Virus record (IMG/VR): IMGVR_UViG_3300037041_000161
Coordinates: 1 to 26,007 of that record
Strand: one strand, 5' to 3'
Source: a virus
Length of the DNA: 26,007 nt
This document shows positions 3,860 to 26,007 of the stretch, one piece after another. How positions within the stretch are numbered: the stretch's first letter is position 1; the number at the start of each line of letters is the position of its first letter. The position numbers and the translations under genes are program-made. Below the pieces are notes generated by a model. That model did no database searches, had not been told where the DNA came from, and worked only from the letters and a program-made list of their open reading frames with translations.

Positions 3860-4438
3860 TTATTGATTGACAAAATCGCGCACTCTGTTTTCCGATTCTT
3901 GGAATAGGCTGGTATAATCTTTATAACCTCCCTCAATGTCTGAGTTGCTTGGGCGCTGGTAACTTAGGAACGGGTAAACAACGTAACTGTTCCCGCGTGG
4001 GTGGACAACTGTCCTAAAATATTCGTCAATTGGCACGGTTAAATCCAAGGTTGCCATCTCTTTGCATAGGCTATGCGAGTAGTAAATTGCGTGAGTTGTC
4101 CAAGCGCCGTAAGTACGGGCCAAGGTGTTGTTTATTCTGTCTAACCTTTGGTCTTTAATATTGGCCCCTAGCATTATCATTTCCCAACCCTCTGGTAAAT
4201 CCTTTATTGCGTTTTCTAAATTTGTCGCCCAACCTCGATAAGTTGCGTCGTCTTCAAAAATTAAAATGTCGCCGTCAGCTTGAGCAAATATCTTTTTAAA
4301 TGTTTGCCACAATCCAAGCCAACCCCAGTCGTTTTTAATAGCTGGCACGCGCTCAAGTTCAAAATGCGGGCCTAATTCCATTTCGCAAGCGCGCCATTTA
4401 TCGCGGCGCGAATCTAAGTTTATAACCTTTGCAATCAT
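3860..4438 (-). CDS. Glycosyltransferase family 25-like protein
   Basis: 192 residues. The N-terminus MIAKVINLDSRRDKW is the signature of GT25 (PF01755, LPS/LOS-type galactosyltransferases and collagen-type glycosyltransferases). ILIFEDDA (EDD at 62-64) is the metal and nucleotide-sugar binding motif, and WEMIMLGA follows as in the family. Length is typical for a short phage or bacterial member. Its ATG overlaps the stop of the MuF gene (ATGA), placing it inside the head operon between MuF and protease, where most related phages have no enzyme. Acceptor unknown; a virion protein or host surface glycan is possible. Confidence 0.82.
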   Translation of the reverse strand: MIAKVINLDSRRDKWRACEMELGPHFELERVPAIKNDWGWLGLWQTFKKIFAQADGDILIFEDDATYRGWATNLENAIKDLPEGWEMIMLGANIKDQRLDRINNTLARTYGAWTTHAIYYSHSLCKEMATLDLTVPIDEYFRTVVHPRGNSYVVYPFLSYQRPSNSDIEGGYKDYTSLFQESENRVRDFVNQ

Positions 4439-10415: not shown

Positions 10416-11045
10416 TTAAATTAGTTTGTCTAAATTTTTATTTTCTTTAATCGATTCCAAAATAAATAGTTTCCAAATCTTATTCTTTGACTTGGCGCCG
10501 ACTGAGGATTCCTCGACCCAATGTTTAGTTAATCGCAATTCTTTGCGCACTTCTTTTTCAATTTCCTCTAGGTTGTAAAGCCAAGGTTTTAAAATTCCTT
10601 TTTCTTGAAACTTGTTAAACCAATTTACGCCCCACTCCGCAATATCTTTGCAATATCCCGTTTCTTTGGCGTGTTGGTAATTCTCTCGAAAAATTTTTTT
10701 ACCAATCTCTAGCCAGTACTCGATTTCCTCGGCGCTCGGCTCTTTGTCTTTGTTGTTTTGGTTTTGTATTTCCATTACAATTTGGCTTTGGTGATGCTGG
10801 TAATATTGGTTAATCCAGCCGTTTACTGTCTTTTCGTTGACGTGGTAAAAATCGCCGTACTGGCCCCTAAGTCCAGCGTGCAAAATGTAGTCTACGCGTT
10901 CGTCTGTCATCCAACCAAATTTTTTAAATAGGTCGTTTAGGCATTCGATTAATTCGGTCGCGTCTTGCTCTTTGTACTCTTTAAATTGTTTAAGACCGCA
11001 AACAAATTCCATTTTTTGCAAGTGTTTTAAAATTGTCTTTTTCAT
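10416..11045 (-). CDS. Hypothetical protein in replication operon, 209 aa
   Basis: Not recognised. It is a mostly helical, charged protein with a central segment MTDERVDYILHAGLRGQYGDFYHVNEKTVN-type region (around residues 46-75), a helical stretch EEIEYWLEIGKKIFRENYQ, and a basic C-terminus. No Walker motif, zinc ligands or membrane segment is visible. The ATG overlaps the DUF4373 initiator stop by 4 bases, so the two are translationally coupled. This placement suggests a helicase-loading or replication accessory protein, without direct evidence. Confidence 0.75.
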   Translation of the reverse strand: MKKTILKHLQKMEFVCGLKQFKEYKEQDATELIECLNDLFKKFGWMTDERVDYILHAGLRGQYGDFYHVNEKTVNGWINQYYQHHQSQIVMEIQNQNNKDKEPSAEEIEYWLEIGKKIFRENYQHAKETGYCKDIAEWGVNWFNKFQEKGILKPWLYNLEEIEKEVRKELRLTKHWVEESSVGAKSKNKIWKLFILESIKENKNLDKLI

Positions 11046-11782
11046 TGCTCTTTTTCTAATTCTTGTTTATAAAGTTTTGCAAATACGTTTTCTTTTAAGC
11101 TTTCTTTTTTTGGTATTGGGTTCCCTCTTTTTACCCAATTAAAAAAATGCTCCTTTGCAAGCTTTTCGTTTTCTTTAAAATCCGCTTTTAAAATGCATTC
11201 TTTTCTAAAGGTATTTAAATGGTCTTGAACTTCTTTTAAATCGGCTTTCCAATTTATTGCTAATCCTTCCAGCCAAAGTTTATTATTCCATAATTCACGA
11301 AAAATCGCATTATGTGAATCCTCATTTACTTTGTTTTCTTTTTCTTGATTTTCTTTAATTTCTTTTCCTTTACTTTCCTTTAATTGCATTGCATTCGCAT
11401 TGCGTTCGCTATGCGTTGGCATTGCGTTCGCATCGTTATCCTTATTCCAACGTTTCTTGGCCGATTCTCTGGCCTTTTCGGACCTTTCTTCTTTCAATTC
11501 CATGCGTTTTAAAAGGCTTTCGCTCCATAAATAATCATCTTCAATTTCAAATAAATTAAAATCGTTTATTAACTTTTTAATGCTATCCTCATGCGTTTGC
11601 AATGCGAATGCAATGCTTTTGTAATGCGTTCGCATACGGTGGTCGCTTTCGTTTCTAAGCAATTCAATTAAGGCCCAGAATAAGCCGTAACCCTCCCAAC
11701 CCATTTCCATCCGTAGTTGTAAAATCTTTGGGTCATCTTTCGCGTTTGAATCGTGCGAAAAGTAATAAGCTTCTTTTTTCAT
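11042..11782 (-). CDS. Replication initiator-like protein, DUF4373 (Lin1244/Lin1753-type N-terminus)
   Basis: 246 residues. The N-terminus YYFSHDSNAKDDPKILQLRM followed by GWEGYGLFWALIELLRN and a winged-helix-like region to about residue 95 is the Lin1244/Lin1753-type phage replisome-organiser domain (PF14297). A basic linker SEKARESAKKRWNKD follows, then a low-complexity stretch rich in N, A, M, K and E (about 110-155), and a helical C-terminal domain. It is the first gene of its operon, sits behind a leader with a terminator hairpin, and contains 11-bp repeats like those of a lambda O-type origin. Confidence 0.82.
   Translation of the reverse strand: MKKEAYYFSHDSNAKDDPKILQLRMEMGWEGYGLFWALIELLRNESDHRMRTHYKSIAFALQTHEDSIKKLINDFNLFEIEDDYLWSESLLKRMELKEERSEKARESAKKRWNKDNDANAMPTHSERNANAMQLKESKGKEIKENQEKENKVNEDSHNAIFRELWNNKLWLEGLAINWKADLKEVQDHLNTFRKECILKADFKENEKLAKEHFFNWVKRGNPIPKKESLKENVFAKLYKQELEKEQ
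11386..11433. repeat. 11-bp tandem repeats (origin candidate, cluster A)
   Basis: Units start at 11386 (GCATTGCATTC), 11397 (GCATTGCGTTC), 11408 (GCTATGCGTTG) and 11419 (GCATTGCGTTC), exactly 11 bases apart; a fifth at 11430 is weaker. An 11-base period is not a multiple of 3, so it is not simply a protein repeat, and it places each copy on the same face of the helix. Location inside the initiator gene matches lambdoid origins. Confidence 0.65.
11595..11631. repeat. 11-bp repeats (origin candidate, cluster B)
   Basis: Two inverted units lie side by side: GTTTGCAATGC at 11595-11605 and GAATGCAATGC at 11606-11616; the latter is the exact reverse complement of the unit at 11386. A forward unit GTAATGCGTTC (9 of 11 matches) lies at 11621-11631. 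With cluster A this gives a facing arrangement about 160 bases apart. Confidence 0.55.
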
Positions 11783-11789
11783 TGGAAAT

Positions 11790-11821
11790 AAAAAAGCCCA
11801 ACAGGTGAGAGACTGTCGGGC
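11790..11821 (-). terminator. Leader terminator before the replication initiator
   Basis: On the minus strand GCCCGACAG (11821-11813) pairs with CTGTTGGGC (11804-11796) around loop TCTCTCAC, with one G-U pair, followed by six T (11795-11790). It ends only 8 bases before the initiator ATG, so it must be regulated or leaky. Its loop is complementary to the loop of the upstream hairpin at 11841-11874. Confidence 0.85.
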
Positions 11822-11840
11822 GGTTAGGTATCAACCTAGG

Positions 11841-11874
11841 GAATTATTCTTGCCTCTCACCTCAAGAATAATTC
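11841..11874 (-). promoter_or_regulatory. Leader hairpin with loop complementary to terminator loop
   Basis: A perfect 12-bp stem, GAATTATTCTTG with CAAGAATAATTC, encloses loop AGGTGAGAGG (minus strand). GTGAGAG in this loop is complementary to CTCTCAC in the terminator loop, and nine bases (AGGTGAGAG with CTCTCACCT) match if the terminator stem opens. Between them a 5-bp hairpin TAGGT/ACCTA lies at 11825-11838. The predicted transcript start (about 11874) coincides with the first base of this stem. Confidence 0.65.
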
Positions 11875-11880
11875 AATACA

Positions 11881-11908
11881 CAAATATAATTCTTTTTGAA
11901 TTATCCAA
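11881..11908 (-). promoter_or_regulatory. Promoter of the replication operon
   Basis: Minus-strand -7 box TATATTTG (11888-11881) fits TAnnTTTG exactly. TTG (11908-11906) lies 17 bases upstream in the string GTTGGATAAT, which is shared with the 9562-9594 promoter at the same spacing. It overlaps the end of the 49-aa HTH gene. Confidence 0.7.
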
Positions 11909-12050
11909 CGAGGTAACGCTTCTTTAGTTGAAAATATACGCAAGCGTAACTAACCCCTAGTTCCAAAGCAATTACCTTGGTCGGAGTACGGTCTTGCCAT
12001 TTTTCAAAGATTAACTCTTTTTCGTATTCGGTTAGGTTGCGTCGTCTCAT
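11901..12050 (-). CDS. Small HTH protein, 49 aa
   Basis: An open frame from the ATG at 12048-12050 starts MRRRNLTEYEKELIFEKW and contains a helix-turn-helix-like segment TKVIALELGVSYACVYFQLK (about residues 25-44), resembling homeodomain-like HTH domains of small regulators and resolvases. Its ATG overlaps the stop of the HTH_39 gene upstream (ATGA). Its stop lies in the promoter of the replication operon. It may bind DNA locally, but the target is unknown. Confidence 0.7.
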   Translation of the reverse strand: MRRRNLTEYEKELIFEKWQDRTPTKVIALELGVSYACVYFQLKKRYLVG

Positions 12051-12256
12051 TTTTTCAAGAAATATCGTGCAACTCGTTTACCATTTTCCAACGTAACTAT
12101 TTCAGTTACCACGTTTAGACTCTGGTCTCTAAGGTCCGCAATTCTAGCGGCAAGCCTAAAGCAACCGAACTGGTTTAAAGCCTCTAGCTGGGTAATTGAA
12201 TATCCGTTTAATAACCAGCCTTTAATTAGCGCGTTTTGTGAGTCGGTAGCTTTCAT
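12047..12256 (-). CDS. HTH_39-like DNA-binding protein, 69 aa
   Basis: The pattern ALIKGWLLNGYSITQLEALN followed by QFGCFRLAARIADLRDQ matches the helix-turn-helix family HTH_39 (PF14090), common in phages and integrated elements, which combines a winged helix with the FG-x-x-RLAARI-x-DLR helix. The C-terminal strand TEIVTLENGKRVARYFL would be the wing. It starts 4 bases inside the stop of the previous gene and overlaps the next small HTH gene. A role in regulating the early operon is likely but not shown. Confidence 0.8.
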   Translation of the reverse strand: MKATDSQNALIKGWLLNGYSITQLEALNQFGCFRLAARIADLRDQSLNVVTEIVTLENGKRVARYFLKK

Positions 12257-23303: not shown

Positions 23304-26007
23304 TTAGGAAATTGGGTAAACGTATGCGGTCGGTACTTGTCCAAAGGTAATGCGCGCCACGCGTGTGGCAAAATCATACTCCCAGCCAATTACTTGCATT
23401 CGCACCGTAGTGTAACCAGCGTAATTAAGCGAAACGGGTAAATAAGCGTTTCCAATTGTCGCGCCTTTGCGTCTAAACGACCCCTCTAAACGATAGCTGA
23501 GAGCGTTGTAAAGCGTCAACACATTACGCGCATAGCAGTCGCGCAAAGTAGGCGAATATCCGCCTAATAAGGCTTGGTTTTCAAACGTTATATTGGTTTG
23601 CGAGTAGGTAATTGACCCGTTGGCGTTGACTTGCAAAAGAAACGTCGATGTCTGGTAATTGTTATTATTAGAGTCCTTTAAAAAGACTTGAATTTGTACG
23701 TTTGCCTCGCCCGTGTAATCGTAATCGTCAAAGGTTACGGTTAGATTTCTTTGCGTGCTGGAAATTGTCGTAACTATTGGCAATACTTGCGAACCCGTTG
23801 GAATAGTTCCGCTTAAACTATTGACCAAAATAAAGGTGCTTGAAATAGTAAAGCCAGAGGCCGCAACATATTGCCGTTGATATTGACCGTTGACAACACC
23901 GCCCGTAAAGTCCAAAGTATTGGCCCCTAAAGTATCCGTTAATCGGTTTACTTGAGTAACCGCGCCGCTTGGCACTTGAATAATATTAGGCGTAGCCGCT
24001 AGGGATTTTTCTACAAACACAATGGCTGGCAATTCGCCAATCCTTAGCCAGTTTTTGGACGCCGTAATTACTAGGTCGCTAAAAACTAAATCGTCCTTTC
24101 GGATACTTGTATATGCGCGGGCCGTCTCGTAAACCTTTGCAACGCTGCTTGGATTTCTTTTCCCTTCAAAGGTTGGAATTATCTTTGCCGCAGTTACAAC
24201 CGCGTTGCCAGTCGGTCCGAAATATTTTAATTCGATTGACAAAAACCCAGCCGTCGGCAATACAAAAGACGAAAGTTTGAATTTACGCGTGTCGTCGTCC
24301 TTTGTCGAATAAAAAACGAAAGTATTGTAGGCTTCATCCCATGCCAAAAGATTTAAGCTTCCGACAATGGTAGTACCTAAATAACGGTCGGTCCCGCCAG
24401 AATCAACGTGCTTTATTGCAATTCCTAAACCGCTGGAAGACGTTGCATAGTTTATGTCTATTTCTAAATCTAAACTAAGGCCAGCAAAGTCCAAGAAAAC
24501 TGGTTTTGATGTAATCGGCTGGTCGGTTTCCTCGCCGTTAGGCATAAATCGAATGTCCCAGCTTACGCCTTGTTCGTCGTCATAACCAGTTTGGGACGGG
24601 ATGTTATTAGGAAAAATTTGGATTACCGCCGTATCTGGGTCTGGCGTAATTGTCCAGTCGTAAGGCTTGTAAGGCCCCTCCAAAAACCAAGATTGCTCAT
24701 TTAAGCTTTCGCCGTTTGCAATAACTGATTGCCCCAAGTCGCCTTGGGTTACGGTAAGTTTTTTAATCGGTCTTTGGTACTGCAAAAGCTGGTCACCTTG
24801 TACGGGTATCCAATCTGTTTCGGCATTGTCTTGGTCGCCTACAACTTCCAAAGTTTGGCCTTCATTGGAAAAGCTAACCATTAATCTGTTAGTGCCGTTA
24901 GATGACAACGCAACAAATTTTGAATCTGCATAGGTCAAAGCATTCCAAGTATTTAACGCTGGTATGGTTATTCTTTCCCATGTTATTGCGTCCGTACTAA
25001 TTGCAATACCATTGGAAGACGCCAAAATTAAACCAGTATAAATGCCGTTTCCAAATGCAAGTTGTGACGGTGAAACGCCTAAATCGGAAGCCGTCCAAGT
25101 AATGCCATCTGTTGAATAATTTCTACCAGTTGTAAATTTTCCGTTTGCAAAAATTACCTTAGTGCCATAAATTGTTCCAGTTCCAGTCCAATTAATTCCA
25201 TCTGTCGAGTACATAGTACGCTGGCCTCCAGTAGTTGCAACCGCAACAAATGTATTATTACCAAATGCAACAGAGTTCCAGCTATCGTCGTTACCTAAAA
25301 CGCTTCTTAAAGTCCACGAGATGCCGTCTGTCGAGGTCATTAATCTATTACTTCCACCATTGCCAACCACAACAAATAAGCCGTTACCGTAAGTAATTGC
25401 TTTTGGTGCAATACCGTTTGTAAATGGCGTGTAACGCGTCCAATTTATTCCATCTGTTGATACTTGAACATTTGTAATTAGGTCTAGTCCAGAGAATTCG
25501 GCTCCAACCGCTACAAATTTGTTATTGGCATAAATTACGTCAGATAAACCATAAGAGCCAATCGTTGTTGTGGTCCAAGTAATGCCATCGCTAGAATAAG
25601 GTAAGTTAAAAGAGCCATTAGAAACCGCTACAAATTTGCCATTACCGTAAGCAATTCCAGAATATGGATTCGCCGCAATTGTTTGTAAATACCAAGTTTC
25701 AGCCGAGCCAATAGCGCTATTTTCGTAACTTTCTTTTACTGCATAGGTATCCCAGTCATGTATATAAATAACAGTCGTATTGATATTTCGAGAAATAGCG
25801 CGCTGAATAATCCATCGGCCGTCCCTTTGAAACAAAACCCAACCCATTGTTTTACAAATTTCTAGCAAGAAATCGAATGCGTTTAAGCCTAATTCGTCAA
25901 ACGTAAACTCTTGCACCTTTAGATTTTCGCCAGCTGATTGCGCAAAAATAGACTTGGTATTGTCCATAACTAAACCCTCGTAAAGGTCGTTACAAACCTC
26001 AAAATCT
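23304..26007 (-). CDS. Tail tip/baseplate protein with inserted beta-propeller, 5' partial
   Basis: The frame stays open through the right edge (upstream codons read DFEVCNDLYEGLV before the internal ATG at 25967), so the true start lies outside the window. From that ATG there are 887 residues. The first 90 (FTFDELGLNAFDFLLEICKT, then MGWVLFQRDGRWIIQR) resemble a tail-associated structural domain. Residues 103-367 are seven repeats of the form AYGNGKFVAV...SSDGITWT, a seven-bladed propeller. The rest (from QTLEVVGDQDNAETDW to QVPTAYVYPIS) is beta-rich structural sequence. It precedes the fibre gene and is probably the baseplate or tip protein that holds it. Confidence 0.75.
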   Translation of the reverse strand, partial: DFEVCNDLYEGLVMDNTKSIFAQSAGENLKVQEFTFDELGLNAFDFLLEICKTMGWVLFQRDGRWIIQRAISRNINTTVIYIHDWDTYAVKESYENSAIGSAETWYLQTIAANPYSGIAYGNGKFVAVSNGSFNLPYSSDGITWTTTTIGSYGLSDVIYANNKFVAVGAEFSGLDLITNVQVSTDGINWTRYTPFTNGIAPKAITYGNGLFVVVGNGGSNRLMTSTDGISWTLRSVLGNDDSWNSVAFGNNTFVAVATTGGQRTMYSTDGINWTGTGTIYGTKVIFANGKFTTGRNYSTDGITWTASDLGVSPSQLAFGNGIYTGLILASSNGIAISTDAITWERITIPALNTWNALTYADSKFVALSSNGTNRLMVSFSNEGQTLEVVGDQDNAETDWIPVQGDQLLQYQRPIKKLTVTQGDLGQSVIANGESLNEQSWFLEGPYKPYDWTITPDPDTAVIQIFPNNIPSQTGYDDEQGVSWDIRFMPNGEETDQPITSKPVFLDFAGLSLDLEIDINYATSSSGLGIAIKHVDSGGTDRYLGTTIVGSLNLLAWDEAYNTFVFYSTKDDDTRKFKLSSFVLPTAGFLSIELKYFGPTGNAVVTAAKIIPTFEGKRNPSSVAKVYETARAYTSIRKDDLVFSDLVITASKNWLRIGELPAIVFVEKSLAATPNIIQVPSGAVTQVNRLTDTLGANTLDFTGGVVNGQYQRQYVAASGFTISSTFILVNSLSGTIPTGSQVLPIVTTISSTQRNLTVTFDDYDYTGEANVQIQVFLKDSNNNNYQTSTFLLQVNANGSITYSQTNITFENQALLGGYSPTLRDCYARNVLTLYNALSYRLEGSFRRKGATIGNAYLPVSLNYAGYTTVRMQVIGWEYDFATRVARITFGQVPTAYVYPIS
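24865..25665 (-). other. Seven-repeat beta-propeller region inside the tail protein
   Basis: Repeats begin at about residues 105, 144, 190, 233, 271, 303 and 344 (counted from the ATG at 25967). Each has a strand such as (I/V)-x-(Y/F)-(G/A)-N-(G/N)-K-F-V-A-V, followed in most by (S)-T-D-G-I-(T/N/S)-W-T. The spacing is 32-46 residues. The flanking sequence TWYLQT and SNEGQTLEVVGDQDN looks like the surrounding domain interrupted by the insert. Confidence 0.7.

Follow-up and report, generated by a model that had tools for sequence, protein, structure and literature searches.

To our knowledge, the systems in which RNA controls phage replication are few and enterobacterial. In the plasmid Rep attenuators of pT181 and pIP501, a terminator lies just before the initiator gene, an antisense RNA (countertranscript) is involved, and an alternative pairing forms or frees the terminator stem. 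The loops of RNAI and RNAII of ColE1 are about 7 nt long. Loop-loop pairing of these two RNAs acts in replication control, and loop differences set compatibility (PMC9458437); RNAI is an antisense RNA, transcribed on its own from the opposite strand, and its target is a replication primer. The nearest described phage systems to the element reported here are P4 CI RNA and P1/P7 c4 RNA. In satellite phage P4, CI is an RNA of the sense-strand leader that, by RNA pairing, causes premature termination before the replication genes (PMC4825925); processing releases CI from a longer untranslated leader, and the two sites that it targets in trans lie on either side of it. The loops of P1/P7 c4 RNA contain its complementary sequences, set the specificity between related phages and are tied to heteroimmunity (PMC12197685), and the gene controlled is that of an antirepressor, not of replication.

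We analyzed a leader in the window, by which we mean the whole stretch of 26,007 nucleotides examined (IMG/VR virus record IMGVR_UViG_3300037041_000161, positions 1 to 26,007). It shares with pT181 and pIP501 a terminator adjoining an initiator gene, but lacks their conserved alternative pairing on the terminator stem. In geometry it comes nearest to ColE1, since it has two fully complementary loops of about 7 nt like those of the ColE1 kissing complexes; here, in contrast, a single sense transcript ahead of a protein gene contains both loops. It resembles P4 CI RNA and its seqA and seqC in having complementary segments within the sense leader of a replication operon (PMC4825925), but it forms one unit of about 85 nt with both loops and the terminator, is found in Bacteroidota phages, and would act in trans only putatively. 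A search with the models of Rfam release 15 as a whole gave no match at gathering score in the window and 23 other loci; weak matches (the trpB motif, STnc310 and others) lay far below the gathering scores and were rejected. We found no description of the element in open-licence papers, which is weak evidence of absence. This kissing-loop terminator leader has the look of a genuine RNA switch, apparently one not described before.

Results

The leader before rep

On the minus strand, the leader runs from a Bacteroidota-type promoter through three hairpins (H1, H2 and H3) and a T-run to the ATG of rep. Its parts, in this order, are as follows.

11881 to 11908, minus strand: promoter TTGG-N16-TATATTTG, with TTGG at 11908-11905, a 16-nt spacer, and TATATTTG at 11888-11881
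11841 to 11874, minus strand: H1, a perfect 12-bp hairpin with arms GAATTATTCTTG and CAAGAATAATTC and the 10-nt loop AGGTGAGAGG, at the predicted 5' end of the RNA
11860 to 11854, minus strand: L1, GTGAGAG, within the H1 loop
11825 to 11838, minus strand: H2, a small middle hairpin with arms TAGGT and ACCTA and loop TGAT, present in the minimum free energy (MFE) fold
11796 to 11821, minus strand: H3, the terminator hairpin, with arms GCCCGACAG and CTGTTGGGC, 9 pairs, and the 8-nt loop TCTCTCAC
11811 to 11805, minus strand: L3, CTCTCAC, in the H3 loop, the full complement of L1
11786 to 11795, minus strand: T-tract of the terminator, TTTTTTATTT, just 5' of the start codon, with TTTTTT at 11795-11790
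11042 to 11782, minus strand: rep, replication initiation protein, 246 aa (Pfam Lin1244_N, E 1.1e-12; phrog_2562, E 9e-25)

An earlier sequence-only reading had placed a promoter at 11881-11908, and the site is indeed there: its box TATATTTG matches the Bacteroidetes -7 consensus TAnnTTTG (PMC7366714). Among the 36 distinct related leaders with a motif-scan site, the box is TATATTTG in 23 and TATATTCG in 7, and the gap between promoter and H1, 6 nt in the window, has its mode at 6 nt (24/36). A generic sigma-70 scan of the window, built on the E. coli consensus, missed this promoter; the same scan, which is blind to the leader promoter too, reported no promoter-like site on the plus strand of the leader. 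Two small helix-turn-helix genes on the minus strand (11901-12256), one of 49 aa resembling HTH_23 below its cutoff and one of 69 aa with an HTH_39 winged helix, end directly before the promoter, the upstream part of which overlaps their last codons.

The perfect 12-bp hairpin with its 10-base loop, the small third hairpin and the terminator hairpin of that reading were all verified, and H3 was also recovered by a simple terminator scan of the window. The T-tract had been said to end 8 bases before the ATG; there are 7 bases between the T-run and the ATG. The leader has a predicted MFE of -32.4 kcal/mol (z = -5.2), a value that none of 200 shuffles reached. Between the predicted RNA start and the rep ATG the window holds no other ATG and hence no leader-peptide ORF with an ATG start. 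The Lin1244_N and phrog_2562 matches bear out the assignment of the gene behind the leader as a replication initiator; the same phage encodes terminase, portal, head, Erf-like, Gam-like and endolysin genes.

Conservation and covariation of the loop pairing

Loci of the main family were picked among IMG/VR relatives of the initiator by protein similarity alone, and the window together with the 61 close loci that had enough upstream sequence made 62. The same leader was present in all of them, with the T-tract kept in all related leaders and a hairpin AGGTT..AACCT, or a variant of it, at the H2 position (also seen in several distant types). The sequence-only reading had claimed full complementarity of the two loops and had set its loss in homologues as a refutation. 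This comparison was run: L1 and L3 formed seven perfect Watson-Crick pairs in 62/62 loci, in five alternative sequences related by compensatory changes. As with P4 CI and P1 c4, the operon under control has complementary segments in its sense leader, here in all 62 loci. In the 37 distinct leaders, L1 follows the pattern GTnnnAG and L3 the pattern CTnnnAC, with perfect complementarity in 37/37; the L1 types are GTGAGAG (11 leaders), GTGGTAG (10), GTAGGAG (10), GTGGAAG (4) and GTCGGAG (2).

For a covariation test, H1, the loop pairing and H3 were encoded as a pseudoknotted structure over 21 distinct rows. Over the whole structure, 99.8% of the cells pair and ten pairs show both-sided changes. 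In the loop helix, 100% of the cells pair and no G-U occurs; three of its pairs show compensatory changes, all from Watson-Crick to Watson-Crick. In H1, compensatory changes occur at 3 of the 9 outer pairs. The covariation of the whole structure was 0.348, against 0.152 when shuffled and at most 0.095 with slid partners; such scores are inflated by relatedness, which the slid-partner controls preserve.

The sequence-only reading had also proposed that the first loop pairs over 9 bp with the opened terminator arm. In the window this pairing is present, AGGTGAGAG and CTCTCACCT forming 9 pairs of which two involve the terminator 3' arm; as a general feature it was not supported, since the two extra pairs reaching into the terminator stem occur in only 21 of the 37 distinct leaders. 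An antiterminator-type alternative pairing, with a reach of 2 bp into the stem, was therefore not found in every member. The H3 loop is of 8 nt, with 7 of them paired, in 35/37 distinct leaders. From these sequences, the conserved contact would be a kissing one, confined to the apical loop of H3 and compatible with an intact terminator. As a 7-bp contact does not disturb the terminator stem, no alternative antiterminator fold suggests itself. Pairing confined to the loop speaks against a classical attenuator, whose antiterminator would open that stem, and favours either modulation of termination by a kissing contact or pairing from one RNA molecule to another.

A second group chosen independently of pairing

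A second group was made of 80 loci from relatives of the L181 initiator, and 36 leaders were taken from it for having a TAnnTTTG-type promoter and a T-run right before rep, complementarity being ignored in the choice. The loop of the promoter-near hairpin had a downstream complement of at least 6 nt in 36/36 and of at least 7 nt in 33/36. When the letters of the loops were permuted in 50 trials, a mean of 2.1 of 36 leaders, and a maximum of 8, reached at least 7 nt. In a set picked by requiring pairing, many second-group leaders have two fully complementary loops of exactly 7 nt (such as GTAGGAT, GTCGCAT, GTCGTAT, GTTGCAG and GTACGAG). Covariation in this group was 0.903 against 0.193 when shuffled, over 16 distinct rows preselected for loop complementarity; because of this preselection, it is the permuted-loop comparison that provides the fair test. 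In part of the group (among L282-L299), a coding frame directly precedes rep and no leader adjoins it.

These results confirm that the observation in the window is beyond chance, the loop pairing being kept in 62 related loci and, compared with permuted loops, in an independent group. A plain terminator that shields rep from transcription arriving from upstream, with loops complementary by accident, would suit the genes upstream of the leader, which lie on the same strand as rep and end at 11901. It is contradicted by complementarity maintained through compensatory changes in 62/62 loci and found again in the second group, and we give it practically no weight.

The distance between L1 and L3 is 47-52 nt in the main family and 46 nt in 25/29 second-group leaders. 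Such a near-fixed spacing favours pairing in cis.

Distant members and cultured phages

The same layout, in unrelated letters, was found before distant initiators (about 45-60% identity) and before relatives of the primase-helicase, at L084/L085, L119, L121, L126, L181/L183, L206, L185, L175, L124, L127/L129 and L089. L084 and L085 differ by a compensatory change, their loop pairs being GGTCTCAC/GTGAGACC and CGTCTCAC/GTGAGACG. In the distant types the loop contact spans 6 to 10 bp. The usual operon order 3' of the element is an optional small gene, a rep-like gene and a primase-helicase gene; in L089, the element precedes the primase-helicase gene and rep comes next, and in both L089 and L174 it stands before the primase rather than rep. 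The element also occurs in cultured isolates, namely the Flavobacterium phages sniff9-2 and hattifnatt9-1, the Cellulophaga phages phi10:1 and phi19:1, and the Tenacibaculum phage JQ. The T-run typically ends a few bases from the start codon, and up to about 45 nt from it in isolates.

The covariance model R1, built from the main family without the loop pairing, matched L089 (E = 3e-7), L181 (3e-6), L206 (5e-6), L119 (7e-6) and L185 (1e-3). A second R1 match in G014 (25738-25820; L259) was rejected on inspection, as the layout was absent. A weak R1 match on the minus strand of the window itself (1820-1894; 17.6 bits, E 0.82), between the gene for the major head protein and the one that follows, is probably an ordinary terminator. 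Scans that did not require a start codon gave false hits (for example L089:4517 and L095), after which stricter scans with permuted-loop controls were used. When the other loci were scanned strictly, with the promoter as anchor, 17 distinct matches came up, against 0-5 with permuted loops. No convincing element was seen in Persicivirga phage P12024S or phage PJN03, and in Enterococcus EF62phi and a Porphyromonas phage only 44 and 61 nt of intergenic sequence lie upstream of rep, leaving no room for one. A covariance-model search of 395 genomes from the phylum of a Chitinophagaceae MAG gave no matches; with strict filters and no positive control, it is uninformative.

Several loop sequences recur in otherwise unrelated elements: GTGGTAG in the main family and L184, GTGGAAG in the main family and L124, ATTGCAG in L181 and L122, and GTACGAG in L185 and L345. 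The pair GTGAGACG/CGTCTCAC is found with its roles swapped between L256 and L092/L093 (L084/L085), GTGAGACG being the first loop in sniff9-2 (L256:3891-3988) and the terminator loop in L093. First loops lean purine-rich.

The distribution of the element bears on two further explanations. A stand-alone small RNA with other targets in host or phage, in which the kissing fold provides compactness or stability and rep merely lies behind its terminator, would account for a unit bounded by promoter and terminator that is of small-RNA size and has a good predicted fold. It would leave unexplained why the element stands constantly ahead of rep or primase operons in phages that are unrelated, and paired loops that vary freely while matching each other are unexpected with a fixed third target; we consider this explanation improbable. 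A role in DNA, as a hairpin-rich replication origin or an initiator binding site with pairing in single-stranded DNA, would be in keeping with a site adjoining the initiator gene, and same-strand pairing in single-stranded DNA would covary equally. The constant spacing from promoter to H1, the GC stem with its T-run ending beside the start codon, and the occurrence before primase in L089 and L174 instead point to RNA, which makes the DNA explanation very unlikely.

Swapping of the element among close relatives

In a tree built from 62 rows of rep DNA, with a bootstrap that is not fully settled, the five loop types are interspersed, requiring 16 changes where the minimum is 4 and shuffled labels require 31.5. 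The 150 nt upstream of the element are 95% identical between L021 and L037 and the start of rep 98%, whereas the element itself is 69% identical; for L001 and L004, the figures are 98% upstream, 92% at the start of rep and 74% in the element. In the alignments of both pairs, the differences begin at the RNA 5' end and stop at the terminator. The element behaves as an exchangeable cassette, swapped repeatedly between close relatives with the flanks kept. This exchange would fit selection on loop specificity between phages; without such selection, it may come from ordinary recombination in the conserved flanks, and the boundaries are clean in two locus pairs only. The predicted energy of cognate loop pairing is -8.9 to -10.7 kcal/mol, and that of non-cognate pairing is no stronger than -5.1. 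The notion that the five types were selected for mutual distinctness was dropped, as random sets were equally distinct.

Cassette exchange favours some role in trans. In a feedback modelled on P4 CI, P1 c4 or ColE1 RNAI/RNAII, which is the chief rival to an attenuator acting in cis, the terminated leader RNA would pair with nascent leaders of the same type and alter how these terminate. Gene dosage would thereby be controlled, and co-infecting phages would interfere with each other by type, as immunity or incompatibility. The interspersed loop types, the divergence of the element within far more similar flanks and the much stronger cognate pairing all speak for it. So does L175, which appears to carry two elements that differ in their loop pairs: GTAAGGAG/CTCCTTAC lies ahead of a 189-aa ORF and the primase (1826-1925), GTAGTGC/GCACTAC ahead of rep (4269-4359). 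A search of both strands of the window found no second exact copy of AGGTGAGAG, that is, no further perfect 9-nt target, which also agrees with feedback in trans. Against it, the near-fixed spacing of L1 and L3 is unnecessary for action in trans, random sets are as mutually distinct as the five types, and exchange may be ordinary recombination. We regard feedback in trans as possible, if somewhat doubtful.

Discussion

We lean slightly towards reading the element as an attenuator in which loop pairing, mainly in cis, governs the expression of the replication genes. Transcription would start at or beside the first base of H1, and the polymerase would make H1, H2 and then H3. A fraction of the transcripts would end at H3 as a compact RNA of about 85 nt, and those that read through would express rep and the genes behind it. 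L1 and L3 would form a 7-bp kissing contact, usually within one RNA, and this pairing would set the efficiency of the terminator and with it the amount of initiator. The expected direction is that pairing favours termination, so that initiator would be low by default. We infer the transcript ends, the effect of pairing on termination and its direction, and the predominance of pairing in cis. Several points count against a cis attenuator: the terminator stem is left intact by the 7-bp contact; the linker between H1 and H3 is short if H2 stays folded, which might hinder a 7-bp kissing contact in cis sterically; and a device working purely in cis would not lead one to expect that the element is exchanged repeatedly.

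A more far-reaching proposal is that the element is an undescribed RNA class, widespread in Bacteroidota phages, in which one sense transcript holds both kissing partners and so serves as a self-antisense attenuator of the replication operon, with an exchangeable loop type that decides interference in co-infection. We put it forward as a tentative and rather unlikely possibility.

The element is far more widespread than is visible from the window alone: a single compact layout stands before the replication operons of many Bacteroidota phage lineages, including those of cultured Flavobacterium, Cellulophaga and Tenacibaculum phages, and its loop pairing survives a complete turnover of its letters. 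The family thereby offers natural kissing pairs of differing sequence, and an experimental system for a loop-loop contact acting on an intrinsic terminator. It also gives rise to a testable idea, namely that the RNA types of these phages may determine their interference during co-infection.
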